A model generated the notes under the pieces. That model searched no databases. It had not been told where the DNA came from and saw nothing but the letters and a program-made list of their open reading frames with translations. This document shows, one piece after another, positions 1 to 49,663 of a stretch of DNA of 64,000 nt. The stretch spans positions 224,969 through 288,968 of the forward strand of contig CAMXCT020006498.1 of assembly GCA_947184155.2 (NCBI GenBank), written 5' to 3'. The stretch's first letter is position 1, and every line of letters starts with the position of its first letter. The position numbers and the translations under genes were made by a program. The DNA comes from Cladocopium goreaui (taxonomy: Eukaryota > Sar > Dinophyceae > Suessiales > Symbiodiniaceae).

Positions 1-3000
1 AGTGCAGAAACGCAGGAAAAGTCAAGGTTTGGAGCTAGTTTCTAGTCGGTTCAGAAAGTGACGTTTGGCAGTCTGGGATACGGGCCACGGGCCCAATCCG
101 TCCTTCACTGCCATGGTGTTTTAGCCCTGCGACACGGTCCTTGGACTCCAGCTTGGACCGAAGCTGTGCAGAACGAAGGCCGGCTCCAGGAGGACACGAG
201 CAGGGTGGCAGTTGGCAGTGCAGAAACGCAGGAAAAGTCAAGGTTTGGAGCTAGTTTCTAGTCGGTTCAGAAAGGGACGTTTGGCAGTCTGGGGTCCTTC
301 ACTGCCATGGTGTTTTAGCCCTGCGACACGGTCCTTGGACTCCAGCTTGCACCGAAGCGGTGCAGAACGAAAGCCGCCGGCTCCAGGAGGACAGGAGCAG
401 GGTGGCAGTTGGCAGTGCAGAAACGCAGGAAAAGTCAAGGTTTGGAGCTAGTTTCTAGTCGGTTCAGAAAGTGACGTTTGGCAGTCTGGGATACGGGCCG
501 CGGGCCTAATCCGTCCTTCACTGCCATTGTGTTTTAGCCCTGCGACACGGTCCTTGGACTCCAGCTTAGACCGAAGCGGTGCAGAACGAAAGCCGGCTCC
601 AGGAGGACACGAGCAGGGTGGCAGTTGGCAGTGCAGAAACGCAGGTAAAGTCAAGGTTTGGAGCCGCAGAACGAAAGCCGGCTCCAGGAGGACACGAGAA
701 GGGTGGCAGTTGGCAGTGCAGAAACGCAGGAAAAGTCAAGGTTTGGAGCTAGTTTCTAGTCGGTTCAGAAAGTGACGTTTGGCAGTCTGGGATACGGGCC
801 GCGGGCCCAATCCGTCCTTCACTGCCATGGTGTTTTAGCCCTGCGACACGGTCCTTGGACGCCAGCTTGGACCGAAGCGGTGCAGAACGAAAGCCGGCTC
901 CAGGAGGAGCAGGGTGGCAGTTGGCAGTGCAGAAACGCAGGAAAAGTCAAGGTTTGGAGCTAGTTTCTAGTCGGTTCAGAAAGTGACGTTTGGCAGTCTG
1001 GGATACGGGCCGCCGGCCCAATCCGTCCTTCACTGCCATGGTGTTTTAGCCCTGCGACACGGTCCTTGGACTCCAGCTTGGACCGAAGCGGTGCAGAACG
1101 AAAGCCGGCTCCAGGAGACACGAGCAGGGTGGCAGTTGGGAATGCAGAAACGCAGGAAAAGTCAAGGTTTGGAGCTAGTTTCTAGTCGGTTCAGAAAGTG
1201 ACGTTTGGCAGTCTAGGATACGGGCCGCGGGCCCAATCCGTCCTTCTCTGCCATGGTGTTTTAGCCCTGCGACACGGTCCTTGGACTCCAGCTTGGACCG
1301 AAGCGGTGCAGAACGAAGGCCGGCTCCAGGAGGACACGAGCAGGGTGGCAGTTGGCAGTGCAGAAACGCAGGAAGTCAAGGTTTGGAGCTAGTTTCTAGT
1401 CGGTTCAGAAAGTGACGTTTGGCAGTCTGGGATACGGGCCGCGGGCCCAATCCGTCCTTCACTGCCATGGTGTTTTAGCCCTGCGACACGGTCCTTGGAC
1501 TCCAGCTTGGACCGAAGCGGTGCAGAACGAAAGCCGGCGCCAGGAGTACACGAGCAGGGTGGCAGTTGGCAGTGCAGAAACGCAGGTAAAGTCAAGGTTT
1601 GGAGCTAGTTTCTAGTCGGTTCAGAAAGTAACGTTTGGCACTCTGGGCTACGGGCCGCAGAACGAAAGCCGGCTCCAGGAGGACACGACAGGGTGGCAGT
1701 TGGCAATGCAGAAACGCAGGAAAAGTCAAGGTTTGGAGCTAGTTTCTAGTCGGTTCAGAAAGTGACGTTTGGCAGTCTGGGATACGGGCCGCGGGCCCAG
1801 TCCGTCCTTCACTGCCATGGTGTTTTAGCCCTGCGACACGGTCCTTGGACTCCAGCTTGGACCGAAGCGGTGCAGAACGAAAGCCGGCTCCAGGAGGACA
1901 CGAGCAGGGTGGCAGTTGGCAGTGCAGAAACGCAGGAAAAGTCAAGGTTTGGAGCTAGTTTCTAGTCGGTTCAGAAAGTGACGTTTGGCAGTCTGGGGTC
2001 CTTCACTGCCATGGTGTTTTAGCCCTGCGACACGGTCCTTGGACTCCAGCTTGGACCGAAGCGGTGCAGAACGAAAGCCGGCTCCAGGAGGACACGAGCA
2101 GGGTGGCAGTTGGCAGTGCAGAAACGCAGGAAAAGTCAAGGTTTGGAGCTAGTTTCTAGTCGGTTCAGAAAGTGACGTTTGGCAGCTGGGATACGGGCCG
2201 CGGGCCCAATCCGTCCTTCACTGCCATGGTGTTTTAGCCCTGCGACACGGTCCTTGGACTCCAGCTTGGACCGAAGCGGTGCAGAACGAAAGCCGGCTCC
2301 AGGAGGACACGAGCAGGGTGGCAGTTGGCAGCGCAGAAACGCAGGCAAAGTCAAGGTTTGGGGCTAGTTTCTAGTCGGTTCAGAAAGTGACGTTTGCTCC
2401 AGGAGGACACGAGCAGGGTGGCAGTTGGCAGTGCAGAAACGCAGGAAAAGTCAAGGTTTGGAGCTAGTTTCTAGTCGGTTCAGAAAGTGACGTTTGGCAG
2501 TCTGGGATACAGGCCACGGGCCCAATCCGTCCTTCACTGCCATGGTGTTTTAGCCCTACGACACGGTCCTTGGACTCCAGCTTGGACCGAAGCCGTGCAG
2601 AACGAAAGCCGGCTCCAGGAGGACACGAGCAGGGTGGCAGTTGGCAGTGCAGAAACGCAGGAAAAGTCAAGGTTTGGAGCTAGTTTCTAGTCGGTTCAGA
2701 AAGTGACGTTTGGCAGTCTGGGATCCGGGCCGCGGGCCCAATCCGTCCTTCACTGCCATGGTGTTTTAGCCCTGCGACACGGTCCTTGGACTCCAGCTTG
2801 GACAGAAGCGAAAGCCGGCTCCAGGAGGACACGAGCAGGGTGGCAGTTGGCAGTGCAGAAACGCAGGAAAAGTCAAGGTTTGGAGCTAGTTTCTAGTCGG
2901 TTCAGAAAGTGACGGCAGTCTGGGATACGGGCCGCGGGCACAATCCATCCTTCACTGCCGTGGTGTTTTAGCCATGCGACACGGTCCTTGGACTCCAGCT

Positions 3001-3494
3001 TGGACCGAAGCGGTGCAGAACGAAAGCCGGCTCCAGGAGGACACGACAGGGTGGCAGTTGGCAGTGCAGAAACGCAGGAAAAGTCAAGGTTTGGAGCTAG
3101 TTTCTAGTCGGTTCAGAAAGTGACGTTTGGCAGTCTGGGATACGGGCCGCGGGCCCAATCCGTCCTTCACTGCCATGGTGTTTTAGCCCTGCGACACGGT
3201 CCTTGGACTCCAGCTTGGACCGAAGCGGTGCAGAACGAAAGCCGGCTCCAGGAGGACACGAGCAGGGTGGCAGTTGGCAAAAACGCAGGAAAAGTCAAGG
3301 TTTGGAGCTAGTTTCTAGTCGGTTCAGAAAGTGACGTTTGGCAGTCTGGGATACGGGCCGCGGGCCCAATCCGTCCTCACTGCCATGGTGTTTTAGCCCT
3401 GCGACACGGTCCTTGGACTCCAGCTTGGACCGAAGCGGTGCAGAACGAAAGCCGGCTCCAGGAGGACACGAGCAGGGTGGCAGTTGGCAGTGCA
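1..3494. repeat. 214-bp tandem satellite array
   Basis: Fifteen copies of the segment GGTCCTTGGACTCCAG (one with a single change) recur at a typical spacing of about 214 bp; further partial units lie between them. Each full unit carries, in order, a TTTGGAGCTAGTTTCTAG block, a GGGCCGCGGGCCC near-palindrome, a CACTGCCATGG block and CCGGCTCCAGGAGGAC. Short variants of about 183 bp lack the GC palindrome segment (copies near 290 and 1995). Longer spacings near 655, 1655 and 2390 contain partial units. The array starts before the window and stops abruptly at 3494. Stop codons interrupt every frame within each unit, so no protein is called. Confidence 0.95.
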
Positions 3495-4930
3495 GTGTCG
3501 TCTCGGGTCTCTTTAGGATGCCATTTAAAGTTTCATACTGCGGTTACGAACGGGGGCTTCGGGTATGGGTCTTAAGTGCTAGAGCAACCCTTTAGGTCCC
3601 CAAGACACCTGGCCAATGACGAAAGCTCCTATTTCTTGAGCCATGAAAAAGTGTCAGAGCACATAGTTGTGCGTGTCATCCTGCAGGGGTCCATGCTGCT
3701 TGCATGTGCACAGTGCCAAACGCACATACAAATGGTTTGTTTAGGTCAGTTTCTGGTTTCTTTAGGGTTCATTTCATGCTTACGACACAGAGGCAGGCAT
3801 GACCCTCCAGTGTCCAGGGGTCGGCGGCAGAGGGCGTAGCCCTTTAATATATATATATTATATTATTTATAGATAGATAGTATGTAAATGGAATAAATAT
3901 CATAAATCTATGCAGCGGATTTGCGGAAACCATCCCAAAAAGCCACGGTGGAGATGCGGCAGAACAGTCACGGAGACCTGCTTTTCACAGAGCAAGAAGT
4001 CAGGACGAGTCGAGACGACGAGTCGAGCCGTGACCTCTCACCACTCTTCAGAGGTCTCTGTGGCAGATCGATGAAACCCGAAGGGTGCTTTTCAAGCAGA
4101 CACGCTGAGGCAGCCCTGTGGTCTGAGCAGTCGACAACTCGGAGATTGTTCGGGAAGGAACAATCAACAACTCAGAGCACGCCACAAAAGCTCTGATGAT
4201 GGGTCGCAAAATGCATTGATCAGTCATATTTCGATCACAATGCTTGTCGAGCAAAATAGCACATCTTCAAGAAGTGAGAAGACAATACCACTGTTTCCAA
4301 ATGCCTTTTGGAAGTTTCGACGACCCATTCATGTGGTGTACGGGACTTGCACATGAAGATAGTATCTAAGCCGCTGGAAAGCACTGACAATAACCACACC
4401 AGGAAAGCATCTGGAACTTGCTGCTGCCTCTTTTTTTGCTTATCAAAACTGAAACAAGCGGGTTTGCCAGAGGCTCAAACAGAGCAATTGAGAGCACGTA
4501 TTCAGGGCAGGAACACCCCTTCAGTGAGCAAAGAGAGAAACACAACTGCACTTACTGCGAAGTATTACAGCAGTCAGCCCATTCGCAGTACTGCAAGGGC
4601 ACAAAGCTGTCTGGGGGTCGCCAAACAGTCTAGCCAAAACAACACTTGAAGTTCACTGGTCTGATGCTGAAACCAGTACAACTTCCGAACCGGCGAGTTT
4701 CATCATCGTAAAATTCTGTAGAGGCCGCACCTTGCCAGCGACACAGAAGAGGAAAGTCTACGCATCAACTTGAAGTGTTTGCTATCAATGGAAAGAATTT
4801 TGCTACCAAGTTGCCGTGACGAAGAGTTTGCAGCTAGTCAAAGGTACATCTCCAAGTGCAATACCGCCATAGCCCTGTGCCTTGGTTCCCCATGGTTAGC
4901 CATCGTTTCGCCATGGGACTTCCATGGATG
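3495..4930. other. no supported gene
   Basis: Unique sequence after the satellite. It holds a short AT run (about 3846-3905) and scattered short open frames on both strands without recognisable domains. I see no convincing coding segment. Confidence 0.4.
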
Positions 4931-5176: not shown

Positions 5177-5477
5177 TACGCACCAAGTGCAACACAGAGC
5201 TCAACCGTGCACATCTATGCGCATCTTGTCAAGAGGCTACTTGGTAACATTTGGTGACATACCGTAGATGGATGAAATATTAAACCCCTTCTATCCGGTA
5301 CAACTCCCCAAAGTTCAATGCTAATGTAACCTGAAGTGCATTAGCCCCAATGGACGAAAGAAATCAAACCCCTAACATCACTTTTCGTAACACGCGCGCT
5401 GAAACATTGAGATTTGGGGGTGCGGGGGTTCAACATAGTGCGTGTTGCAGGGTTTGAATATTTTGTCCGCTACTGTA

Positions 5478-5582
5478 TGGAGGTTTCCTGAAATGGGGCC
5501 CCCCCTAAATCATACTTGTTAATAGGATTTTCCATTATAAACCAGCCAGCTATTGGGGTACCACCATTTATGGAAACCCCCA
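5478..5582. mobile_element. MITE-like inverted-repeat element, copy 1
   Basis: A 105-bp element begins TGGAGGTTTCCTGAAAT and ends ATGGAAACCCCCA, which are imperfect inverted repeats of each other. TA dinucleotides flank it on both sides (5476-5477 and 5583-5584), as expected of a Tc1/mariner-like target duplication. The interior TTCCATTATA and CCAGCTATTGGGGTACC blocks recur in two other copies in this window. It has no coding capacity. Confidence 0.7.
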
Positions 5583-6481
5583 TATAAATCCTATAATGTA
5601 GTAACAACAACTGGACAACTTTTGATCCACTTGAAGTCCTTCTGAAGGGACCTGAAGGGAGAGCGGGTTGCACGACAAAAGCGAGTGTTGGTTCAAGGCA
5701 GCGTTGCCCTTCTGGACTCGCATAGGTCACCTTCGGGCCTCAGCACCAAATCTAAAAAACAACATGTCAGAGTACGGATGTGACTCTCTGTGTATACATG
5801 TATATTATATCTATACGAATGTATAAAGGTACAATATATAATAATATATATATAATATATATATATACACGGTATATTACAAATGGGATCAAATGGGTTT
5901 GTCTGAAAATGGAGTAGCCCTCGAAGTCCATCGTCACCCACTAAGGGGCATCCAAGCTGCGGAGGCAAGTTCGAAGTCCTGCCATCAGCGTCAATGCAAC
6001 GGGAGCACCTCGGACGGTCATGTCTCTAGAAGCCACACATCAAACTGTCATTTTTAAGATTTTTTATGTATCCTAGATAATAAGGAACGAAACTGGTTTC
6101 TTAAATATCATTGAAACATATTGAAACTTAGGAATCTCTCTGGAAAAGGAAAAATCATACCTTTTTGAGCTGATCTTCCTAGAAATCATGAGCAATCAAT
6201 GGGAATAGGTAATGAGTTCTGAATGAGTCATGATATGTCACGATAATCTGTTATAAAATGTTATAACCTGTTATAATCATGCAAGTTTCACACTGTTTCT
6301 ATTTGGATCTGTTTAGTCCAGTTCTCTGTCGCGATCATTCTACGAGACCCAAGCTGCTGTCTTCGCTGTCCTGTCGCACCATGCAGCGTCCATGTCCCAT
6401 ACGCACAACCCACACAGGTACCATGATGACATGAAGTAAAGTCATGTAAAGAGTATGTAAAGTCACTATGACCATGAAACT
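5583..6481. other. no supported gene; AT-rich tract
   Basis: Contains an AT-rich tandem tract (about 5800-5880, TATATA/ATATAT runs) and AT-rich unique DNA. No recognisable coding segment. Confidence 0.4.
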
Positions 6482-9744: not shown

Positions 9745-11038
9745 TAGACTTCGCAAAGTCATGGGATCCCAGGGTATTGCTTGTCATGCACCGCAAAAGC
9801 AATCAGAGCACCGGCGGCATTTTCTTTGTGGAACTGTGCAGCTCGATACCCTGAGGTCAACTTGAGCACCAAATCTTGAGCACTATTCTTTGAACATATT
9901 CTGAGTGGATTGAAAAATGGGGCTTGAAACACAGTTTCGTTGAGAAGTGTTGAGTATCCCGGATGTATCGAAGTTTACATACAGTAGAGATCTGTAGAGT
10001 TTGAGGATTATATCATATCTTCTCTTATGCCTCTCAGCTTCGGCGTCGTCGATCTCTACTTCTGCCTCCCGGCACTTTCAAATCATCCAAATTCAAGAGA
10101 TATTCAAACACACCGTTTGGATGATTTTGAATACATTCATTTTAAAGATCGATCATAATAAATCATGACGAATCATACCCTCTTGTTCACATCAAAATAG
10201 CCTGTAGAATGGATGTGTATCCCCATTTATCCCAAAATATTGCATTAAAAAATATGGATCCGCAGCATTTGCCTAAAATATCAAGAAAAATGCCAAGAAC
10301 ATGGGGTTTCCCAGGTCCTACACCTCGCCCATGGATCAACAGATTAAGGTGCACACTGCGGCGGCGCCGATCTCGACTGCGACTGCGGCTTCGCCCTCGA
10401 GCACGCATGCCTGAAGGCGCCACGAATCCATGGGTAATGGATATGAGTCAAATTGAAGCACCCAGCAAATCACAGATATATGTTTAAAAAAGTTATTGCT
10501 GATATCAACTACTATCAACTCATATACTTACTCATATCTATCATCCAATTAAATGTTGGAGAACCTTTACAAAAAAATGTCCATACTCCTTCGTGGCCTC
10601 TGCCAGAATCTATAATTTGCTTCAATACGTTCCGAGCTTGCCAACTGGTCTTCGGAATGTCTCACCGGTCTCTTGCATGCCAGATGCCTGTGAGAAAGTC
10701 TCGGCTTGTCCTTGCCCCAGGGCGTGTATTTGCGCTTCTTAAGTTCATTGATTTAGTTGGTGTTTGTGACAAACCGAGTGCTTTCAATGCCATCAAAGCG
10801 CTTTCAGATGCTTCCAAGTCTCATCTCCATGACATTTTCTCGAGGTTTCATTGGCTCAGGCGGTGGCCTAAGGGCAAAATACCAATTGGAGCCAGCACAA
10901 CGAATCGAGCGGTTTGAGGATGTTTGAGGCATATTGTGGCGCAGTTGGCCTGCCACGATCAGGCTTCCAGTCTCCCTCCAGGATCATGCCATCCAGCACA
11001 ATTTCTCCTTTCCTGGCTCGACTTCAACACACGACAAA
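9745..11038. other. no supported gene
   Basis: Mixed AT-rich and ordinary sequence with short open frames on both strands. The longest (plus, about 10453-10917) has no recognisable domain. Nothing is supported. Confidence 0.35.
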
Positions 11039-11150
11039 TGGAGGTTTCCTGAAGTTGGAGTACCCCCAAATCATCCATGTTAATGGGATTTTCCATTATA
11101 CATGGGAGTAAACCATCCAGCTAGTGGGGTACCATTTGTGGAAACCCCCA
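11039..11150. mobile_element. MITE-like inverted-repeat element, copy 2
   Basis: This 112-bp relative of the element at 5478-5582 begins TGGAGGTTTCCTGAAGTTGG and ends GTGGAAACCCCCA. It shares the TTCCATTATA and CCATCCAGCTA...GGGGTACC blocks. Flanking dinucleotides do not match (aa / ga), so the target duplication is absent or decayed. Confidence 0.7.
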
Positions 11151-12337: not shown

Positions 12338-12363
12338 TCTACATCAGAATAATAGCAGGAACA
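12338..12363. repeat. 26-bp flanking direct repeat, 3' side of element
   Basis: Perfect match, same orientation, to 20515-20540; it includes ATCAGAATAATAGCAGGAAC. Its last bases overlap the start of the 119-bp repeat (AACAT), a short microhomology. Interpreted as one half of a target-site duplication. Confidence 0.85.
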
Positions 12364-12478
12364 TATGTTATGCGTTCAACCTGCAGGCTACTCACATCTC
12401 TCACTTTTGGCCAAGGGGTGCTCGGTGACAGTCATCTGCAACCTCCATCTGTACTGTCACAATGGTGCCTTTCTTTCC
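12360..12478 (-). repeat. 119-bp terminal repeat, outer copy (B2)
   Basis: Identical over 119 bp to 12636-12754 and in the same orientation. It forms the 3' terminus of the element (minus-strand sense). Identity of the two copies argues for a young insertion or recent templated copying. Confidence 0.9.
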
Positions 12479-12635
12479 AGTGACTAGGAGGGAAGATGCT
12501 GTGCTCGTAGGCCTAAACTGGAGAAAAACAGGTGCGGGTGGGGCGGGTGATTTTTGGGCTTTGAGCCCACTTGACTGCAGTGTGTCTGCAGTTTTCACTC
12601 CAAACCCCATGTTCATGCGCACAACTGTGCTACCA
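12479..12635 (-). repeat. inter-repeat segment (A2) with trans-splice acceptor
   Basis: Segment between the two 119-bp copies. On the minus strand it contains ACTGCAGACACACTGCAG, then the 29-bp motif shared with the 5' end, then a pyrimidine run and CTCCAG. It is read as the A2 unit of a split-repeat element and preserves an unspliced form of the 5' leader junction. Confidence 0.65.
12548..12576 (-). promoter_or_regulatory. 29-bp motif copy (A2) with AG trans-splice acceptor and GGGCT hairpin
   Basis: Identical to 20467-20495. On the minus strand it starts AGTCAAGTGGGCTC and contains the perfect inverted repeat GGGCT-CAA-AGCCC (plus strand GGGCT-TTG-AGCCC). Here the AG (12575-12576) is preceded by CACTGC. 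At the 5' end of the element the same AG is the last two bases of the spliced leader. This identifies the AG as the acceptor used for trans-splicing. Confidence 0.8.
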
Positions 12636-12754
12636 AACATATGTTATGCGTTCAACCTGCAGGCTACTCACATCTCTCACTTTTGGCCAAGGGGTGCTCG
12701 GTGACAGTCATCTGCAACCTCCATCTGTACTGTCACAATGGTGCCTTTCTTTCC
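12636..12754 (-). repeat. 119-bp terminal repeat, inner copy (B1)
   Basis: Inner copy of the 119-bp repeat, 276 bp from the outer copy. The last codons and stop (12677-12679) of the RT-RNase H frame lie within it, so the repeat doubles as coding 3' end. Confidence 0.9.
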
Positions 12755-14188
12755 CACACTGCGCCATGTCACCCATCTACCAGTGTGAGGAGTCTGCAGG
12801 GAAGGTGGTCCGGTGTTCATCACATCATGTAGGGCTTGTCCATGTGCATAAGTGATGTCGCTGGCAGCCCGGAAGAGGATCTTGAAGAGTTGGTCTGTCT
12901 CGGTATTGATCCAAGATGCTTTTATCAGCTCCATCTCGCTGAAATTTTGTCTGGAAACTTGGTCACTGATGTTGAACTCTGATTGGACCCATTCCAGGTG
13001 AAGGTGCCATCCATGTTGTGCCACCACTCGCCAGACCAGGGCGATCAAGTTGCAGATCGCTGGATCCTTGCAATAGCCTTTCCGCAGAGCAAAGAAGCCA
13101 GAAGCGTTGTCGATGAATGACATCAGCATCTTGGACGGCAATGCTCGGCAAGCCAAAAAGGCCAGAAATTGTGCCACAATCTCCAGGAAGTAGATGTAGG
13201 CTTTCCGGGTGCAAAACCTCTTGATAAGCCATGGTGGTATCGTTCCTGCTGAGTAGTATGTGACGCCATCAAAGTAGATGACATAGCCCCAACCATTCTC
13301 ATAAGTATGGCATTTGGTTTTGTGCCATTGTTTGGGGATTTGTTCTGATCCCGGTGAGAGGGTCTGACCGTTCAGGACGAAGAACGCGTCTGAGTACACC
13401 ACCGTTGTTGGGTGTTGCATCTGCCTCGGTATTACCCGTGGCTGGACCTCTGTCAGCAGGTTCGCAAGTGTCAGCAATGCCGACCTGAGTGGTCCATTGA
13501 GCTGATCTCCATGATCATCATTGGACAGTCCATGTGCCCTGGCATACAGAGGTTGGAGAGCCGCTTTGCCAAGCTGTCCAAACAATGTGGAGGTGAGGAA
13601 GACCAATTTTCCAGCCAGTCTGTGGGCGGCTTCACTCTGGAGCAGGTTGTCATCCAAGGCCGCTTTGATTGTGGCCCTGGCTTTGTTGCAGCGGTCAGGG
13701 TGTGGCGAGAGCGTCACCATGTCGTCGTCAATGGTGAGACTGATGCCAAGGACCTTCTGCGATGAAGCTGGCGGTAAGGCATTTCGTTCTTTCATCCTGA
13801 GACCCAGGACACGTGCCAGTCTGGTGAACTCTTCATACCCGCTGGAAACTGGTGTAGCTGGCTCCACTCCGATGAAGTCGTCCACATAGTGTCCAACTGC
13901 CGTGGCCAGCAATCTTCTGCTCAAGAAAGTGATGCTGTCTGCGGCCCTGTTGAAGTTCCAAACGGAACTCACCGCTCCGAAGGTCAGGGCATGGTGTTTC
14001 AACAGGATTGGCCCGTGAGGGGTCATGAGCACACAGTAGCAGTCCTCTGGGTTCCTCACAGGGAATTGTCTGTAGGCACCGTTGAGGTCCTGTGCCCACA
14101 CCATGGCACGTTGCTGGGTGCCAAAGTCCGTCAAGGCCAGGTCGACGAAGGTCTTGATGTCATGGTGGTTGGGGGACATCGGAGACAA
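12677..14188 (-). CDS. reverse transcriptase and RNase H (3' part of Pol)
   Basis: A 503-codon frame. RT palm motifs are present: AQDLNGAYRQF with Asp34 (motif A), LTFGAVSSVWNFNR at about 69-81 (motif B), HYVDDF at 100-105 with both catalytic aspartates (motif C), and QKVLGISL at about 144-151. The RNase H domain follows at about 262-412 with its four acidic residues: Asp267 (VVYSDA), Glu336 (YFLEIV), Asp360 (FIDNA) and Asp409 (NISDQVSR). This RT-RNase H arrangement matches DIRS/Ngaro-like elements. There is no Met start of its own family: the N-terminal RT fingers are in the preceding frame, and a one-base change in the G-run at 14171-14175 separates them. The product copies element RNA into DNA. 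Confidence 0.9.
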   Translation of the reverse strand: MSPMSPNHHDIKTFVDLALTDFGTQQRAMVWAQDLNGAYRQFPVRNPEDCYCVLMTPHGPILLKHHALTFGAVSSVWNFNRAADSITFLSRRLLATAVGHYVDDFIGVEPATPVSSGYEEFTRLARVLGLRMKERNALPPASSQKVLGISLTIDDDMVTLSPHPDRCNKARATIKAALDDNLLQSEAAHRLAGKLVFLTSTLFGQLGKAALQPLYARAHGLSNDDHGDQLNGPLRSALLTLANLLTEVQPRVIPRQMQHPTTVVYSDAFFVLNGQTLSPGSEQIPKQWHKTKCHTYENGWGYVIYFDGVTYYSAGTIPPWLIKRFCTRKAYIYFLEIVAQFLAFLACRALPSKMLMSFIDNASGFFALRKGYCKDPAICNLIALVWRVVAQHGWHLHLEWVQSEFNISDQVSRQNFSEMELIKASWINTETDQLFKILFRAASDITYAHGQALHDVMNTGPPSLQTPHTGRWVTWRSVGKKGTIVTVQMEVADDCHRAPLGQK

Positions 14189-15300
14189 TCACGGTGGCAT
14201 TGTGACCTGATCTCCGAAAGTCCTCGCATCTCCGCACCTTGTCTGTCTGCTGTACGCTGAAGCAGAAGCTTGCGCATATGTCCTGCTTCAGGAGTGGCTG
14301 CAGAGGCTTGTTGCCTATGGTGGTTGTCTTGACCGGCCACCAGTCAGGGGCCTCATATGGCCCAGACATCCTGCCCTTCTCGAGCTCTGTCTCGAGCTCC
14401 TTGAGCATGACCGTCCATTGTGGGTCAGTGCGGTTGCTGCGCAGCTTGGCTAGGGTGTAATGTCTGTTGTTTCTCATGAAAGAGTCTTGTGAGACTGGAT
14501 GTTCATAACGGCCGTCGGCTCGAGGCATCCAGCCCGCTCCTCCGTGGATCTTGCCTGTGACTGCGAAGCCTTGTTGCAGGTCCTCGGCAAGCTCAGCAAG
14601 TCCTGGCATCCTCACCTGTTCCAGGAGGTCCAGGAGAAGTGGTATCTGTGCAATTTGGGAATGCTCTTTGTCCCAGTAGACCTGTGCGACATGTGGTGGA
14701 AGACTGTCCCACCAGTCGGAGGTTTCATCCTGGCGATCCATAGCCATCTGCTCGATCTCATTGACTATCTCAGTCCGCATCCGGGGCAGACTGCCTCCTA
14801 TGAGCCTGTGCAGGTCTATGCACTGTTGCAAGCCGGGCTCAAGTGATGGGGCCTTTTGTATGGGGTGACTGGCATGCTTGGCCAATTCCCAATGTTCCCA
14901 CATCGAGGAGGCTTGGGCGACGCAGACCTCATCACGTGGCCACTTTCCCGGTCCGAGCATTGGTTGCATAGGCCGGATGATGACCATCATCTGTTGCAAT
15001 GCTGTGTTGTGTGGAGCTGGAGCAGGGGTGGCAGCAAGCGTCCCCGTCATCGCTTGCAGCACGAGCATCATGATGAGTCGAGCCGATCCCAAATGCCACC
15101 CGTTGGCGAGCATTCTGTGTCTCGCTCGCTCGGGCACTGAGGAAACCTTGGTGTACCCTTTGGGTAGCTGATGTAGTTGCTCTTTTGCCTCAGCCCCGGG
15201 GGTAGTCATGGAGCCATCTGGTGAGTGGAGCATGGCTTCGGCTGCGTATTGCCATGGGGCGTATGTGCGCCCGTCTTCCAGCCAGCGAGACCTCCTGTGC
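14160..15300 (-). pseudogene. methyltransferase C-terminus, linker and RT N-terminus (frame-shifted Pol segment)
   Basis: The frame is open from about 15300; its first ATG is at 15233. It encodes RWLEDGRTYAPWQY and RHRMLANGWHLGSAR; the latter resembles motif X of C5-cytosine methyltransferases. A linker of about 200 residues follows, then the RT N-terminal region with SFCFSVQQTDKVRRCEDFRR. It ends at a stop (14160-14162) created by an extra base relative to the next frame, which continues the RT directly. It is therefore a middle piece of one polyprotein whose frame is lost at both ends. Confidence is high that it belongs to Pol and moderate on exact shift points. Confidence 0.75.
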
Positions 15301-15552
15301 CGGGTCCACTCTGCCTTTGAGCTTCTTCGGTGGAGCCCTGCCGGACTCTGTCGGTGCTGGAGTTGTCAGGCAAGGTACCCGTTTGGTGTGGGCCTCCACG
15401 TCCTGGTGAAGTCTGAATCCTTGCAGATCTAGCTCGGCGGCCTCCTGCATCTTGCCATCATAGTGAAGCCTGTAAAATTTCTGGGATCTGGTCCATTTGA
15501 GCTTCTCACCGGTCACGGGGCTGTGCCTTGCTTGACCCCAATCGATCCTGGT
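15190..15552 (-). pseudogene. methyltransferase target-recognition segment, out of frame downstream
   Basis: This continues the methyltransferase frame directly after an in-frame TGA (15553-15555). It includes TRIDWGQARHSPVTGEKLKW and VPCLTTPAPTESGR. After about 15290-15330 the coding sense moves to another frame, so the last 25-30 codons here are not native. In C5 methyltransferases the region between motifs VIII and IX is the target-recognition domain, which is what this segment should be. The TGA follows a TGG tryptophan codon, so a TGG to TGA change is a simple explanation. Confidence 0.65.
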
Positions 15553-16173
15553 TCACCATAGCCTTGGTCGATTGATCAGGCCGTGGTCTTGCGCATCCAA
15601 AACCACTGGTTCACAATCAAGGCGGTTTGAGAAGAAGTCTGCCTCTCCCTTGTTCATCACTACATTCTCTGTGATGTAGCCAACTCGCCGGTTGGGGAGG
15701 CCCGCCTCGATCTCGCGAGCGAAGGAGCAGTAGGCTGTGAATTTCTGCCCCTCGGCTCCTGCTGACCCAGGTGGATCAGTTTTGATCCGTGAAAAGTCTG
15801 GACACGGAGGTGCGCTGGCAAAAACGACTAGCATCTCGCCCGTAGGGTCATGACGCCTGACAAGGTCGGCCACCTCCTTGGGGTCGTCTTTGAGAAAGTC
15901 GCCTCTGTTCACTGCTGTTGGATGCCGCTCCTTCAGAACTGCATTGCAATCATCATCAACTTCCCATGCAATGTACAGGTCGATGGACTCGACAAGCCCA
16001 TCAAGTGCCAAAGCTGCCGTGCCGATCCCGTCGAAGCAGCTCAACAAGATGACCTTCTTGTTGATTTTCTGAAAGGTTTGGCCTGACCCGGCCGATGGTG
16101 GTTGAGTGGGTGGCGGCCACCCAGTGTTGTCGGGTGTCACAGAGGCCACCTGCTCTGTGACCCCGTGCTGTCC
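15553..16173 (-). pseudogene. C5-cytosine DNA methyltransferase, catalytic half
   Basis: The frame runs from just after the Gag TAG to a TGA at 15553. Motif I is LLSCFDGIGTAALAL. An acidic AWEVDDD (motif II) and GDF (motif III) follow. Motif IV is ASAPPCPDFS with the catalytic Cys in the Pro-Cys pair, motif VI is ITENVV, and motif VIII-like is LINRPRLW. These are the cofactor-binding and catalytic motifs of DNA (cytosine-5) methyltransferases, which methylate C5 of cytosine with S-adenosylmethionine. No ATG lies between the TAG and motif I, so the domain can be reached only through the Gag frame. DIRS1-type elements carry an N6-adenine-type methylase instead, so this is an independent acquisition. 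Truncation by TGA makes this copy inactive unless recoded. Confidence 0.85.
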
Positions 16174-16176
16174 CTA
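16174..16176 (-). promoter_or_regulatory. in-frame Gag TAG stop, candidate readthrough site
   Basis: The context on the minus strand is CCTAAATAGGGACAGCACGG. Gag and the methyltransferase-Pol frame share one reading frame, separated by this single TAG. UAG followed by G, with a same-frame pol, is the arrangement used by gammaretroviruses for readthrough. A mutated sense codon (for example CAG) is the alternative. Confidence 0.45.
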
Positions 16177-17385
16177 TTTAGGGGAGGTCTTCCAATCTGA
16201 AGACCATGCATCACGCTGCCAACCTTGCTTGTCCTCCTGCTTCGAGGAGCTCTGCCATGACACTGATGCTTTGTCTGCTCGCTCATAGGGGCCCCAGGAC
16301 CACGGCTTTGTCTGGCGCGTGTAGGTTGGGGCACGAGTGCCCTTGCCCGACTTGGTGTTGCCCTTCCCCTGACCTTTGGGAGGTTCCGGCTTGGCAGTGG
16401 CGTTCGTGGAGGCCTTCTTGATGATGTTCGTCGGTTCTCTGTTCATACACTCGGTGAACGAGTCATAGTCTCTCATGATGGCCGTGGTGCTCTCAGAAAA
16501 TGTGCGTCCTCCCCGCATCTCCAAGGCAAGCTTCCATGAAACTGACATCCAAAACTGAGCCAGTTGGTCTGTCTTGGCTGGGCGACTGCGCACCAAGCGC
16601 ACCAGCCAGTCGAAGAAGCTGTGCACGGCCTGCTCCGGTCCCATCTTGCAGAGGATGAAGCACCACCGAATGCTGGCAAGACCATCCAGGATCGCCAGCA
16701 CGCTCCTCGGTTGCCAGGGCTCTTCCGGAGCTGCCACCAATTGCTCACCGGTGAGCGTCAGCTTGGTCACTGAGCGTTCCCGCTTGGCCAGCGGGTTGGG
16801 CTCGCCATTGGCCTGGAAGGTCCTGATGGTCACCAACTCTCCCAGGAGGACCGGGGTGTAGGACTTGCTGGTTTCGTGCTCGTGGAGGACTCGAGCTATG
16901 ACGCTTTCTGCGCCGATCAGCTCCTGCACCGGGAACACTCTGTCCTGTCCCCCGATTTGCTGTGACTGGTAGTCTTGGAGGAGCGCGGACCATTGCCCGG
17001 GCGCCAGGTTCTTCGGGACCTTGTCTTCTGTGGCCGTGGCCGAATTGCTGGCAGCTGTTGTCGAAGGTGCCGCAGGCTTCGGTTGCATGGCTGCATGTGT
17101 GGCCTCCCATGACTGTTTCGCCAAGAGCCACATATGGAGGAGGATCGCCTTGGCAATCGGTTTCTCATTTTCCGGAATGGTCAACATTCCACCATCTGGC
17201 TTGGACCATCCCTGCATGAGCGGCTGGATAAGAGTCTGTTCCAGGCTGCTCTCATCCTTGCTCAAAAGTGCCAGGGTTGCAGGAGTCTTTATGCCACGGA
17301 GTTCCAAATATTCGATGATCGGACCCCCGGCTGCGGCATCCCGCGCTATGTCAGCCAGAGACAGCGGCGTCAGAGAGAGCACCAT
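16174..17385 (-). CDS. Gag-like protein
   Basis: The first ATG in the frame is at 17385, giving 403 codons; a TTG upstream is not needed. The N-terminal half is rich in Ala/Leu helices. The middle contains a helical VHSFFDWLVRLVRSRP segment. The C-terminus is basic and Gly/Lys/Trp-rich (KGQGKGNTKSGKGTRAP), as in nucleic-acid-binding Gag tails. No CCHC zinc knuckle is present. Position upstream of and in frame with Pol suggests the structural protein of the element; function is inferred from context only. Confidence 0.6.
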   Translation of the reverse strand: MVLSLTPLSLADIARDAAAGGPIIEYLELRGIKTPATLALLSKDESSLEQTLIQPLMQGWSKPDGGMLTIPENEKPIAKAILLHMWLLAKQSWEATHAAMQPKPAAPSTTAASNSATATEDKVPKNLAPGQWSALLQDYQSQQIGGQDRVFPVQELIGAESVIARVLHEHETSKSYTPVLLGELVTIRTFQANGEPNPLAKRERSVTKLTLTGEQLVAAPEEPWQPRSVLAILDGLASIRWCFILCKMGPEQAVHSFFDWLVRLVRSRPAKTDQLAQFWMSVSWKLALEMRGGRTFSESTTAIMRDYDSFTECMNREPTNIIKKASTNATAKPEPPKGQGKGNTKSGKGTRAPTYTRQTKPWSWGPYERADKASVSWQSSSKQEDKQGWQRDAWSSDWKTSPK

Positions 17386-17403
17386 GACGGCGGCCCGACT
17401 CAA

Positions 17404-17741
17404 ACTAGTTGTCTCAGCCAGACTGAGGTGACCTCATTGGTTCAATGTGCAACCACACGCATCGTGTGTGATCGGCCAAATGAATCGCATGAGTGATGCA
17501 GTCATGGCGGTTGAAAAACGACCCGTGGTTGAAAGCAAATAAGATGAAACAGCAAGCCGCACATGGCAACGTGAGAAGAGGACCTAAGTAGCCTGAAACA
17601 AGAGGAAGAGGTCAAACTGAATTATGAGGGAGTGACTTCCTTCATATCTGTAGCGGTGAGATATGCAACATTATCAACGGCATGCATCGAAGCTGTTTTG
17701 ATCCGCGTGCGCAAAGAATGCTGAACCTCCTGCTGGGACAG
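17404..17741 (-). other. intergenic gap within the retroelement
   Basis: 338 bp between the recombinase tail and Gag. No open frame with element-like content. It may hold an internal splice acceptor for a Gag-Pol transcript; none can be assigned. Confidence 0.4.
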
Positions 17742-18323
17742 CTACTCATCCTCAGCACTGCTCGCCGAGGTCTCGTTAAAGGCTGAAACGCCCGAGGATG
17801 CTTCACTGCTCTCGGAGCTTGAGTCCTCACTCATGTTAAAACATTTACGGCATTTACGGGATCCATCCAGCTCATTGGATGTCCGAAGGAAGGTGCGACT
17901 TCCGTATCCCCAGCCGCATGGTGTGCGCCACTTGAGCGGCTCGTTGTCGTCCTCGTGCTGAGAGGCTTTGTGTAGGATCTTCGCTTTGGGTCTGAAGACA
18001 AAGGTCTGCGTAGGCCGTTGTACCGCTTGTTTGACTTGGGCCAGCTCTGCTTGGAGGCCTCTCACGGCGGCCGCAAAGGCCTTGGGGCGGGCTGCTGGTG
18101 CAGCTGGCCGTGGTGCAGGTGTGCTCGGAGCTGCACTGAGCGCAGGCTGGTTCACCTGCAAGTGTATCGGCTGATTGAGAGAATGGTCCCCTGCCAATAC
18201 TTGTTGTGGCAATTGTGGCACTCTTACCAAGGCGCTGTCCTGGGTGTACCTCAGAACTGCGGTACTGGTCCAGCGTCCCAGTAGCTGTATCAGCGCCAGC
18301 TCAACACCGGAACTCGAAAGCAT
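17742..18323 (-). pseudogene. tyrosine recombinase C-terminal part with catalytic Tyr
   Basis: The frame contains GVELALIQLLGRWTSTAVLR followed by Tyr26 at about 18246-18248. This is the end of tyrosine-recombinase box II: the GRW tryptophan takes the place of the His/Trp, and Tyr is the nucleophile. An Ala/Pro-rich region, a predicted helical QAELAQVKQAV, a TPCGWGYG...RKCRKCF cysteine cluster that could bind zinc, and an acidic Ser-rich tail follow. The expected HxxR of box II should lie just upstream; the sequence there reads TGWTGIAGAQ in this frame, lacking both His and Arg. It is therefore separated from its N-terminal part by a frameshift and looks catalytically damaged. Confidence 0.7.
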
Positions 18324-19459
18324 CTGTGCTCCTGCGATTCCTGTCCATCCGGTCCAGGTCTTGTCAGTGACGTGCCAGTCTGTGCAATGACAGATCTGAT
18401 GGCTTCGATGAACTCCTGTTTGGAGGCTGTACGGCCTTCTTCACCCGGGAACAATGGCAGCTGACTTCTGGGCGCACCGGTGCGGAATGCTTCCAGACGT
18501 ACCAAATGTCGTTCAGCACTGTGCCACACGCAGAGCCCGTGAACACGGGTATTGCAGCTGCAGGTCAGGGAACGTTCAGTAAAACGTCCCCTGTGGTCTG
18601 TCTTGTGGAGTGGGATGCTCAGGAAGACCTCCTTGGCTTCCAGTCGTAAATCACAGGCTCTTGCACTTGCTAGCTCAGACTCACGCAGCATAAACCACAG
18701 GCCAATCACAGCCATGTCCCTGCAGTGGTCCGTGTTTCCAAAGGAGAACGGTTGTTCATCCATCGATGGTGGGAGATTGCCCAGGAGGAGCCCGTTGAAG
18801 GCATCTTTGAGTTTGCTTTCTCCGAGGCCTCTCTGTATAGAGCGGATGCAGTCACGGATTCCCAGCTTGACCATGGTGGGCACAGGCGTCTGCAGTGCCC
18901 GCTGCTGGTGCCCACACACGGCCTGGTAGTAGACCGCGGCGCTGCGATATCCCCCCGCCTTCAGGGAGGCTCCGAAGCACCGTATGTTGTGATTGTCCAG
19001 CGGGAATGCCTGGATCTCCCAAGCTCTGCAGATAGCCAGGTAAGTGCGGACCCTGGCTTCCACTGCGGGATTTGTTGTTCTCGCGAGGACGTCCTGATCC
19101 AGAGCCTGCAAGGAGCGTTGGCGCTGGTTTGGCCTCGCTGCTTCAAGAGCGGCTTGGATGCTCGCTCTCTTGCCCATATGCCTGACTGGCAAGTCGATGC
19201 GGGCACCATCCTGGCTCTCATCCCCCGGGCCCGCTGCCGGAGGATGGGCCGCTGCGAGGATGGACTCCAACTGCCAGTGGGTCAAACCCGAGGCGTGGAG
19301 TTCGTCATACCTCAACGCCAGCTGGTTGAGGCTGACGACACCATGGCGAACTAAGCTCGGCGCCAGGTGTTCTAACCCGGCTCCTCTGAGAGCCTCCCAA
19401 ACCTCTCCTAGGTTTGACATGGAAAACAGCCCTGATGCCGGGAGCTGATGTGGATACAT
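18290..19459 (-). pseudogene. tyrosine recombinase, N-terminal and core part
   Basis: Likely starts at ATG 19459 or 19420; the frame upstream has no better ATG. The N-terminal part (LGEVWEALRGAGLEHLAPSL) resembles a SAM-like helical domain. The core-binding and catalytic region holds WFMLRESELASARACDL with the box I Arg, LSIPLHKTDHRGR with the beta-hairpin Lys, and a Cys/His cluster CSCNTR...CVWHSAERH. The frame then leaves the recombinase sense at about 18330-18365 and stops at 18290. Tyrosine recombinases cut and rejoin DNA through a Tyr intermediate; in YR retrotransposons they integrate circular DNA. Placement upstream of Gag and RT is unusual for DIRS/Ngaro elements. Confidence 0.75.
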
Positions 19460-19868
19460 AAATGAAAAATCTCTGAAACTGAGTTCAATAAATGCCAAAT
19501 CATGACAACGTGGAATCAACGACATGCGTGAAATGCAGCAAGGTGCAACATGAGTCCAAGTCCACATGTGTCCGACAACCTGTGAACCTAACATCATACC
19601 TGAAGCAACTGAAAGGAAATGCACAACAGTGACAACTGACTACAACATCATTGACAAGGTTGAGAAACAAGGTGAGAGCAGTGTTCCACATGAAACTGCA
19701 TGGGTCGACTGGTGAAGTCGCTCATACACTCACGCACATGTTCTTTTATAGCCATTGCTCGCGCGGGTGAGAGCGACATCCCTTGGTGTGCTCCTGGCCT
19801 GTGTGAAGCAGCCCAGTGTATTGAGCCCGATCGTCAGGTGGTACCCAGCCATGAAGTGCCACCTATTC
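19460..19868 (-). other. spacer between ORF1 and recombinase
   Basis: About 400 bp with no convincing frame. A leader intron or internal trans-splice acceptor is possible but cannot be shown. Confidence 0.35.
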
Positions 19869-20444
19869 TCATTGGGTTTGTTGTCCAGCCATGGCGGCCT
19901 GTTGGATCCGATCTCGATTCCTCTCAAGCAAAGCGGTCTGGAACCGCCACTGGTAATTCTTCAGGATGGTCTGGATCAGCGTTAGCGTCGGGAACAAGTC
20001 ATAATATCTCATTTCCTCTATGGTGAGGATGGCGGCGTACAGCCTGCGGTCTGCCTTGAGACCCGACTGGTCATCCTTTTGGAGTCTCCACCTGATCATC
20101 TCATCGGTGGCAAGTTCCATTTCTGCTCGCAGAGCCTCCATGGTTTGCTGGACTTCGTGGGCTGATGGGTGATCGTCTCCTTCCGTAAACACGAAGTCAC
20201 CCTCTGCCATCGCCGCGACTGATTCGCTGGCTAGTGGACCCAAGATGGCCATCATCTGGACCAGGGTCAAGCTCAAAGCCCTCAATGGGCTGTCGCCACA
20301 CAGGAGCATGTGGTCCATCGCCGCGGTGAAGGAAAGTAGGAGAAGCCCTACCACCGGCGACGAGGAACCATCCGGAAAACAGGCGTTCCGGGCAGACTGA
20401 GCGTCCACAACGCTCTCCATGAGCGAAATGGCTAGTGCAGCCAT
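19869..20444 (-). CDS. retroelement ORF1, unknown function
   Basis: 191 codons from an ATG in strong context (GCCATGGCT), 23 bp downstream of the shared 29-bp motif. The N-terminal third is hydrophobic (VVGLLLLSFTAAMDHMLL), which could be membrane-associated or buried helix. The remainder is helical and charged (HEVQQTMEALRAEMELATDE). I recognise no domain. As the first ORF after the spliced leader it would be the most readily translated product of the element RNA. It could be an accessory or Gag-like protein. Confidence 0.55.
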   Translation of the reverse strand: MAALAISLMESVVDAQSARNACFPDGSSSPVVGLLLLSFTAAMDHMLLCGDSPLRALSLTLVQMMAILGPLASESVAAMAEGDFVFTEGDDHPSAHEVQQTMEALRAEMELATDEMIRWRLQKDDQSGLKADRRLYAAILTIEEMRYYDLFPTLTLIQTILKNYQWRFQTALLERNRDRIQQAAMAGQQTQ

Positions 20445-20466
20445 GGCTCAGTACTTACCCTTCACC

Positions 20467-20495
20467 TGATTTTTGGGCTTTGAGCCCACTTGACT
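20467..20495 (-). repeat. 29-bp motif copy at 5' end (A1)
   Basis: Identical to 12548-12576, including the GGGCT/AGCCC hairpin. On the minus strand it follows the spliced leader directly (the AG is shared) and leads into GTGAAGGGTAAG and the ORF1 ATG. Beyond these 29 bp the two loci diverge on both sides. Confidence 0.85.
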
Positions 20496-20515
20496 TGAGC
20501 CAAAATGGCTACGGT
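20494..20515 (-). other. dinoflagellate spliced leader (DinoSL) fixed in the genome
   Basis: The minus strand carries all 22 nt of the conserved dinoflagellate trans-spliced leader, ACCGTAGCC...GGCTCAAG, with no mismatch. It is not an SL RNA gene: the sequence after the leader is the element's own TCAAGTGGGC, not an SL intron donor. It therefore derives from a trans-spliced mRNA. It abuts the 26-bp flanking repeat, so it is the exact 5' end of the integrated copy. Confidence 0.95.
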
Positions 20516-20540
20516 CTACATCAGAATAATAGCAGGAACA
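20515..20540. repeat. 26-bp flanking direct repeat, 5' side of element
   Basis: Partner of 12338-12363, identical. One base (20515) may belong to either the leader or the repeat. Confidence 0.85.
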
Positions 20541-39759: not shown

Positions 39760-41034
39760 GCTAGCTAGTCACTTCACAAGAGCAGATCCGTTGTTCCAGG
39801 GAAACATGGGCAGTGCTTTCATGTTGAAAACTTTCAACTTCTATATGCTCTTGAGTTCACCGCCTGACCAATCTGCAGTTTAAGTTTTGCACACTGGGAG
39901 CGCACAAAGCAACCCCACACCTCCAGAGGTCACAACTTCACCAAACAACATATGGTCACTGTAGAGGAAGCAACTGTGTGTCCTATCTACAAATATAACC
40001 ACGGTATACCAAAGTCAAATGGACACGTCCACAGTTCTCCATAGAATGGTCGCAAAGAAAGATGGATCCAGTTTTGCAACCTAACAGCAGTGCAAGCAAC
40101 AACAAAAAGTTTCTTTGTGATAGCTCATTTCTGCTTTGAAGGTGCGGTCATTTCATTTTGCACACATCTCTGCACAAGCTGTTTGAGTTTCGTGCAAACC
40201 TTTTGGGACAAAACCATTTCATCGCAGCAATTGCCAAGTTGATTTCTGTGTTTTGTGTCCGGTTAGTCCGTGTCCAGTGCAAGTGTTAATCATTGCACTG
40301 TCAGAATCGTAAATGATCAAAGTGCCCTTGGAATTGGAATGGGCATTTGGCTCTTTTGCCCAGCGCATTCAAATGCTCTTTCGTAGAGAGTACGTTTTCA
40401 CCACGACTAAAACAAGGTTTCCAAACCACGACAAAACCCGGCTGCGAACCACGACAAGGACCAAAGATTTTAAGCACGATTGGCAAACACATAATCGACT
40501 GTCTGCGTAGCCAGCAATCACACTCTTAATGAACTGGTTTCATTGTGTTTTAATCAATCAAATGCTTCATTACCAAAAAAACAAACAACACAAACTACTA
40601 TGAGAATATATAATTACAAATATATATATATACCTTACTATATATGCATATTTACCAATTTATTAAAAAAAAAACCATTGCCAGTTGCGCATTGTTTTCC
40701 ATTGCCAGTTGTGATGGATCTGTTTGGCATCAGTGATTGAATCCTGCTTGATGGTTACGTTTCACCTATCAATTAGCCAGCTGACCATTTTGGTCAAGTA
40801 GAAATCAACCCTAGAGGTTGAGAAAAGCGGAACAGACTGGTCACAAAATCGAAATATACAAACAGAAGCAGAAGCAATGTATGGATATAAATGTTGAATG
40901 CGAAAAGAAAAGGTTCATTGTCATTCTCAGGACATCAGCATGGAGTGAAATCAGCAAATCTTCTTCCGGTGGATGATTTTCTTCACCTGCGCCGACCAAA
41001 ACTCTTTTCAACCCCAGGAGTCCGTAAGCTTACA
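39760..41034. other. no supported gene; ACCACGAC triplet
   Basis: Contains three copies of ACCACGAC at 40400, 40425 and 40448 (plus strand). Otherwise AT-rich unique sequence without a convincing gene. Confidence 0.4.
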
Positions 41035-49507: not shown

Positions 49508-49538
49508 AACACAACAGAGTGGGAATTACTGTAGCATG

Positions 49539-49663
49539 TGGAGGTTTCCAAAAATGGGGGCACCACCAAATTATTCATTTAATTTGGATGTTGCATTCAG
49601 CATTCCATTATAAATGATAAACCATCCAGCTATTGGGGTACCCCCTTTTCAGGAAAGCTCCAT
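49539..49663. mobile_element. MITE-like inverted-repeat element, copy 3
   Basis: 125-bp relative of the copies at 5478 and 11039. It begins TGGAGGTTTCC and ends GGAAAGCTCCA, with interior TTCCATTATAAAT and CCATCCAGCTATTGGGGTACC in common. It carries a short insertion in the first half. Flanking TG dinucleotides occur on both sides. Confidence 0.65.

Follow-up and report, generated by a model that had tools for sequence, protein, structure and literature searches.

Among the described systems closest to the locus treated here are the SymbioDIRS-Dnmt3 elements, which according to the available parts of PMC5890265 have the order A-coding-B-A-B, a separate tyrosine recombinase ORF and a pol gene with a reverse transcriptase and a cytosine methyltransferase-like part. 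In the same paper (de Mendoza 2018) the term "spliced leader" is absent and trans-splicing appears once, as a general dinoflagellate trait. The order A1..B1-A2-B2 is also given for PAT, Ngaro and VIPER in the accessible portions of PMC4157794 and PMC6681497, and tyrosine-recombinase integration is there said to work without target-site duplication (PMC4157794). A second group of comparable systems is defined by the leader instead of the repeats. DinoSL-tagged retrogenes are mRNA copies that returned to the genome with the leader at their 5' end (PMC12014239 and PMC6050394, available parts); the type of retroelement behind them is called unknown in what is available of PMC6050394, with LTR elements thought likelier than non-LTR elements. 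The retrotransposon Cer1 of C. elegans has a leader acceptor near its 5' end and, as far as the accessible text of PMC3315495 goes, a spliced 2.4-kb mRNA with and without leader and an 8-kb RNA without it. The trypanosomatid L1Tc and related elements with Pr77 live in a trans-splicing host, with an internal promoter and unspliced transcripts (PMC8190864, available part).

The window (the whole stretch of DNA analysed, 64,000 nt) contains an insert of 8,151 nt, 20514..12364 on the minus strand, in the order duplication, leader, A1 remainder, ORFs, B1, A2, B2, duplication. Our main reading, held at a probability of about 0.75, is that it is a full-length DNA copy of trans-spliced element RNA, which comprises the first three steps of the route proposed below together with an insertion by whatever route. 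The features, in the direction of the element, are:

20515..20540, minus strand, target-site duplication, left copy (TGTTCCTGCTATTATTCTGATGTAGA), exact repeat of 12338-12363, single in the empty site (L019:5002-5027)
20494..20514, minus strand, spliced leader CCGTAGCCATTTTGGCTCAAG, 5' end of the insert, exact, 0/100 shuffles
20467..20493, minus strand, A1 remainder, 27 nt 3' of the trans-splice site, identical to 12548-12574
19869..20447, minus strand, ORF of 192 aa, no Pfam match
17742..19639, minus strand, tyrosine recombinase gene by similarity to P0047, frame change with ~8 codons lost
15190..17433, minus strand, first part of pol by ORF analysis, in-frame stops at 16176 and 15555
12677..15365, minus strand, reverse transcriptase part of pol in two frames, 15365-14160 and 14188-12677
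12636..12754, minus strand, repeat B1, 119 nt, 100% identical to B2
12575..12635, minus strand, first 61 nt of repeat A2 (outron, acceptor ..CACTGCAG), homologous to the A starts of relatives
12548..12574, minus strand, rest of repeat A2 (exon part, 27 nt), identical to 20467-20493
12360..12478, minus strand, repeat B2, 3' end of the insert, no poly(A), 119/119 identical to B1
12338..12363, minus strand, target-site duplication, right copy, exact repeat, compared with the empty site

The leader CCGTAGCCATTTTGGCTCAAG is exact at 20494-20514 (-) and is the sole match in the 64-kb window when up to three mismatches are allowed, and none of 100 shuffled windows gave a match at that tolerance. Chance similarity is ruled out by this exact single match and the empty shuffles. 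The first-pass annotation had placed a full 22-nt leader at the minus-strand 5' terminus; the position holds and so does the 21-mer, and the A at 20515 that would make it 22 nt is also a base of the flanking repeat. Directly 3' of the leader follows TCAAGTGGGCTCAAAGCCC, found elsewhere in the window only at 12556-12574 (-), i.e. twice compared with a mean of 0.04 in shuffles. The sequence behind the leader is TCAAGTGGGCTCAAAGCCCAAAAATCA, and the same letters together with the preceding AG recur in the internal copy, so that 20467-20495 and 12548-12576 are identical in 29/29 positions (100%), AG included, and diverge 5' of it. It had been claimed that the internal copy carries the same sequence and that the two loci part upstream at exactly the AG, and the sequence comparison agrees on both counts. 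The insert thus has the leader and exon junction of a DinoSL-tagged retrocopy at its 5' end but not the poly(A), as its 3' end reads ..GCATAACATA(TGTT).

A script revealed a perfect 26-bp direct repeat, at 20515-20540 just before the leader and at 12338-12363 just past the 3' end. The duplication is given as 21–26 bp because the A on the leader side may be base 1 of the leader and the TGTT on the right is ambiguous; these last 4 nt of B2 are common to B2 and the duplication, and TGTT also terminates B1. When the insert's own genome (G000, 1.166 Gb, 6,202 contigs) was searched with the insert 3' end, an empty site with one 26-mer was found on contig C1231, where window 22498-20515 runs straight into window 12363 onwards, the two sharing exactly the 26-mer. 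A duplication of 26 bp together with an empty site is as in target-primed retroposition. The flanks differ from C1231 in 2/1,984 bases on one side; on the other there are 38/8,468 differing bases and 22 gaps. Compared over C1231:50501-100400, the homology covers window 22498-3849 only and ends at AT-rich repeats on both sides; judging from the alignment C1231 is either a second, divergent haplotype or a duplicated block. Window 1-3500 is a tandem array with a unit of ~215 bp, and related repeats occur on C1231 close to where the homologous block ends. Other repeats of the window are 44-bp minisatellite arrays of opposite orientation at 40993-46451, with a strand switch near 44 kb (~44 kb) where the GC skew also flips sign, and a dispersed short repeat family (5477-5583, 11038-11100 and 49538-49663, 70–84% alike).

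Two readings of these borders differ from an insertion into a site without leader. One would make C1231 the product of a precise deletion by recombination between the two 26-mers and not a pre-insertion site; the restriction of the homology to 22498-3849, pointing to duplicated blocks or divergent haplotypes, speaks for it, but the duplication must still have flanked the insert beforehand and 26-bp repeats should seldom recombine with each other, which makes this reading very improbable. The other, that the leader was in the target before the insertion or was joined by chance, could draw on the 251 leader-like places in the genome (at most one mismatch), but it is already contradicted by the empty site, which has no leader, and by the position of the leader, which is enclosed by the duplication and joins precisely at the acceptor AG; we consider it next to impossible.

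As judged by sequence the insert is a tyrosine-recombinase retrotransposon with split direct repeats, SymbioDIRS/PAT-like, the 29-nt A pair and the 119-nt B pair standing in the order A1-coding-B1-A2-B2. The first-pass annotation had taken the internal copy for a record of spliced and unspliced forms; it is instead the repeat A2 that belongs to an element with split direct repeats. An origin of the internal copy from a nested insertion or as the remnant of a dimer was dropped, as the A and B pairs form the A1-B1-A2-B2 layout of the relatives. A cis-intron after A1 (GGTGAAGGGTAAGT) is conceivable; A1 and A2 also part at the homologous point in C4092 and C494.

Scans of the element ORFs of the window against Pfam and PHROGs gave PF00145 near the cut-off and otherwise nothing or weak matches that are probably due to chance, and relatives were therefore needed for gene identification. 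The recombinase gene lies in two frames (18290-19639 and 17742-18440) and is 97–98% identical to P0047, which matches PF00589 just above the cut-off (E = 3.6e-6, 27.3 bits, cut-off 27.1); the broken recombinase ORFs of the window themselves gave no PF00589 match in the Pfam scan. P0047, a 97% protein relative, comes from a metagenome contig; in viral contigs no relatives of it were found, and a search there with one outron pattern gave no match. The stretch 15553-16173 is C5-cytosine methyltransferase-like, with PF00145 at E = 4.6e-4 and 20.2 bits, below the cut-off of 22, and TIGR00675 at 15.6 bits with a cut-off of 100.65. The reverse transcriptase translation contains a YVDD motif, and its part 14188-12677 is 42% identical to P0016, which is above the PF00078 cut-off; the other 42% relative scanned, P0017, is below it, and the reverse transcriptase protein of the window gave no Pfam match. 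The protein relatives P0040 and P0006 are labelled Symbiodinium pilosum or Skav, the latter presumably Symbiodinium kawagutii; these labels and the 251 leader-like places of the genome point to a dinoflagellate as host. The copy is broken by the frame change in the recombinase, the stops at 16176 and 15555 and the frame changes in pol.

A search with the reverse transcriptase revealed relatives on 14 other contigs, the best at 75%. The 5' end could be determined in seven of them (C4092, C494, C857, C2327, C25, C5392 and C4867), a count that leaves out C700, C719, C836, C3426, C5113, C1508 and C6123, and all seven start with the ~60 nt that are replaced by the leader in the window, none with the leader itself. 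This is what the first-pass annotation had named as a check, i.e. whether other copies begin with the sequence upstream of the acceptor or with the leader, and the former was found in 7/7. In C4092, C494, C4867 and C5392 the outron stands directly against flanking DNA without leader. The leader as a fixed part of the element is rejected, being absent from the seven determined relatives and from the empty site. Window 12575..12635, the part absent from A1 here, is homologous to the first ~60 nt of both A1 and A2 in the relatives. The AG of the leader junction is present in 7/7 lineages compared, the acceptor being TG[CT]AG in six aligned lineages and, in the remaining one, GTGCAG. What is read directly from the DNA comprises the structures, the shared AG, the empty site and the relatives with unspliced 5' ends.

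The relative on C4092 (element length 8,197, ~76% over the longest aligned piece) starts its A1 with TGGTAGCACAGTTGTGCGC.. against flanking DNA; its A pair is identical over 86 nt and its B pair over 121. C494 has the same layout with a B pair of 131/131 and an A pair of 97.8% over 91; the layout A1-coding-B1-A2-B2 is complete in both, and their A1/A2 match ends at a point homologous to that of the window. In C4092 no target-site duplication was found, the longest common repeat of the compared flanks being 7 nt and off the junction, and none was found in C2327, so that both canonical copies tested (2/2) are without duplication. C857, C25, C2327 and C700 form a young subfamily, nearly identical in the stretches read, with an 86-nt A that is 100% identical at all seven places, including the 5' ends of C857, C25 and C2327. 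Within this subfamily C2327:61120-61624 (L069) has A1 present and ends at the first B, with no A2-B2, other DNA following directly after ..CACATGTT. C4867 has two A repeats only 2.9 kb apart and is accordingly a shortened copy. C836, C719 and C3426 are near-identical distant relatives with long tandem repeats in the stretches fetched; their A1 was not found in those stretches, nor that of C719 in a further 7.1 kb of the contig.

Genome-wide, a pattern for the outron start, which detects unspliced A1 ends only and is blind to leader-type 5' ends, matched at 14 places compared with 0 for a reversed control. Twelve of the 14 belong to the element family, four as A1 (C494, C4092, C4867 and C5392) and eight as A2 (the same four, the window, C719, C836 and C3426); the remaining two (C4318 and C6076) share one sequence outside the family. 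The first 100 of the 251 leader matches, which are all exact and follow the contig order as far as C3001, include none on C25, C494, C700, C719, C836, C857, C1508 or C2327. A pattern of leader plus exon, tuned to the exon of the window copy, gave 51 matches compared with 18 in reversed controls, with 0 mismatches only in the window, the others being judged on matched letters alone. One leader-capped copy was thus found, and no donor copy closer than 75–78% was found in the assembly.

Repeat A contains further possible signals. The A1 remainder holds the hairpin GGGCT-CAA-AGCCC, and a hairpin just 3' of the trans-splice AG (window 12548-12574 and homologues) recurs with stem letters that vary by lineage (GGGCT/AGCCC, GTGTGGG/CCCACAC). 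When the folding of five exons was compared with shuffles, the window, C4092 and C719 were clearly better (z -2.5 to -3.2), C494 was weak (z -1.7) and C4867 no better than shuffles (z -0.3); the hairpin behind the AG may be an RNA signal. At the left A end (window 12577-12635 and homologues) an inverted repeat GCACA..TGTGC is present in 6/7 lineages, not in C4867, and its place beside the GTT junction makes it a candidate recombinase binding site.

From the above we infer the RNA steps, the inserting enzyme and the role of A2. A complete ancestor, A1-genes-B1-A2-B2, would have been transcribed from, or from upstream of, A1 (step 1); the host spliceosome would have joined the leader to the AG 61 nt into A1 and discarded the outron (step 2); reverse transcription would have started at the end of B2 and copied the leader-capped RNA of ~8.15 kb up to the leader (step 3); and the cDNA would have entered a TTTGTT target with a duplication of 21–26 bp, A1 not being rebuilt (step 4). 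The earlier proposal that the RNA of the element was trans-spliced, copied and inserted gains support from the seven unspliced relatives, the lack of any leader-started one among those with a determined 5' end, the existence of a pre-insertion site and the leader placed exactly between the target-site duplication and the A1 exon.

As to step 4, the element is by sequence in the split-repeat recombinase family and its integration event is atypical: members of this family are said to integrate free of duplication, and here a 26-bp duplication is present. A duplication of 21–26 bp is not a recombinase signature, and the window copy therefore entered by an unusual route. The left flanks of the seven canonical sites (TTTGTC, TTTGTT, TTGAA, GTGTA, TTGTA, ATGTT and TTTGTT) resemble the B end ..ATGTT, and the insert joins the B2 end at the target CCTTTGTT, which scores 8.25 against these seven flanks and ranks in the top 0.016% of positions, although a motif from seven sites is loose, with ranks from the top 0.08% to the top 12.6% when each is left out in turn. 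Of 738 TGTT positions 10 score as high. The targets of five other leader-tagged insertions with repeats score from -1.97 to 4.05, the best of them (L007, 4.05) near the lowest canonical site (4.45). The evidence at the right end favours the element's own machinery there, with an abnormal left end because the outron took the left end of A1 with it, and that this machinery started the insertion is a tentative suggestion, at somewhat less than even odds.

Step 4 might instead, and this too falls short of an even chance, have been LINE-type target priming in trans, in which a host LINE used the leader-capped RNA as in mRNA retrocopies. A duplication of 21–26 bp fits target priming, for which such a length is typical. 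Exact repeats of 13–21 nt stand beside the leader at 5/27 distinct sites compared with 22/1,080 control positions, the search covering 1.5–2.2 kb downstream; of the five repeat-flanked sites one ends in A8, two are without A run and two are bare leaders. The SymbioLINE-Dnmt elements of dinoflagellates have, in the available text of PMC5890265, target-site duplications without poly(A), and pairing with the nicked target would be possible for an RNA that ends in UGUU. What speaks against a LINE in trans is that the insert stops precisely where B2 does and that its target, with a score of 8.25, is like the element's own sites, the five other leader-tagged sites scoring -1.97 to 4.05; the numbers are small. 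If a LINE did act in trans, the copy would say nothing on the element's own replication.

It is rather unlikely that the host repaired a staggered break with the element's own linear cDNA, with neither a LINE nor a recombinase step; the ends of the insert (leader and end of B2) are the expected cDNA ends and the 4-nt TGTT may be microhomology, but the longer match to the target motif of the family is not predicted. At two of the leader-tagged sites the leader stands alone between two copies of an 18-nt stretch (L008, C205) or with a 15-nt relict between two copies of an 18–21 nt stretch (L039, C324), the upstream repeat copy beginning right after an AG; both look as if a leader-capped cDNA had been joined back to the locus it came from, near the acceptor.

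Returning to the copy of a trans-spliced RNA, trans-splicing at the AG would cost A1 its first 61 nt, and in the relatives A1 is complete, being identical or nearly identical to A2 in C4092, C494, C857 and C25 and over most of the length in C5392; the C4867 pair shows several base differences. A2 holds the stretch removed by trans-splicing, a second copy of it inside the RNA 3' end, so leader-capped RNA could, as an unproven possibility, still yield intact daughters. It had been suggested that a copy stripped in this way could restart transcription only if the internal copy regenerated the 5' end. A2 lies 3' of the genes, which makes a restart in place impossible, and it could restore the 5' end only in a new replication cycle. 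With leader-capped RNA as the usual template, A2 would have to serve for rebuilding A1; with unspliced RNA in that role, the leader-capped copy would be a by-product. In the former case, which we put forward with reserve, the element would replicate through the host-leader-capped RNA itself, with the leader as 5' end and A2 as a backup rebuilding A1 of the daughters. Perhaps, with similar caution, the A1 outron is always lost by trans-splicing, and the left recombination site goes with it, the window copy being an intermediate before rebuilding. In an ordinary cycle A2 would first serve to restore A1, with circularisation and recombinase integration following afterwards, and ordinary copies would for that reason have a complete A1. 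If true, the split direct repeats would be what enables the element to live with obligatory trans-splicing. By analogy with Cer1, leader-capped RNA may also be an mRNA by-product and unspliced RNA the normal template.

When compared with the described systems, the insert shares with SymbioDIRS-Dnmt3 the layout, the separate recombinase ORF and a pol gene with a reverse transcriptase and a methyltransferase-like part, the latter weak and below the cut-off in the window copy, and differs in having the leader where 61 nt of A1 would stand and in its duplication of 26 bp. With PAT, Ngaro and VIPER it has in common the repeat order and, in two canonical relatives, the lack of a duplication; it differs in its trans-splice acceptor inside A, which the accessible portions of PMC4157794 and PMC6681497 do not mention. 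It resembles DinoSL-tagged retrogenes in the leader at its 5' end, but here the template is a full-length retrotransposon RNA and the copy comes with an empty site and an exact duplication. Unlike in Cer1, where the leader is found on the short spliced mRNA, the RNA of ~8 kb had the leader, and unlike the L1Tc group, which is non-LTR, it is a split-repeat element. In the literature searched, with subscription journals mostly outside the coverage, no report of a leader-capped recombinase retrotransposon was found. The empty site and the unspliced relatives make it testable how such elements restore their front end, as well as which machinery is behind the many leader-tagged retrocopies of dinoflagellates. 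Trans-splicing should strip the 5' end of any retrotransposon moving via mRNA; Cer1 and L1Tc, as far as described in the available parts of PMC3315495 and PMC8190864, avoid this, the former since its 8-kb RNA is not trans-spliced and the latter by making unspliced RNA, and the locus presented here gives direct genomic evidence for the RNA of a whole tyrosine-recombinase element of ~8 kb having been trans-spliced and then reverse-transcribed.
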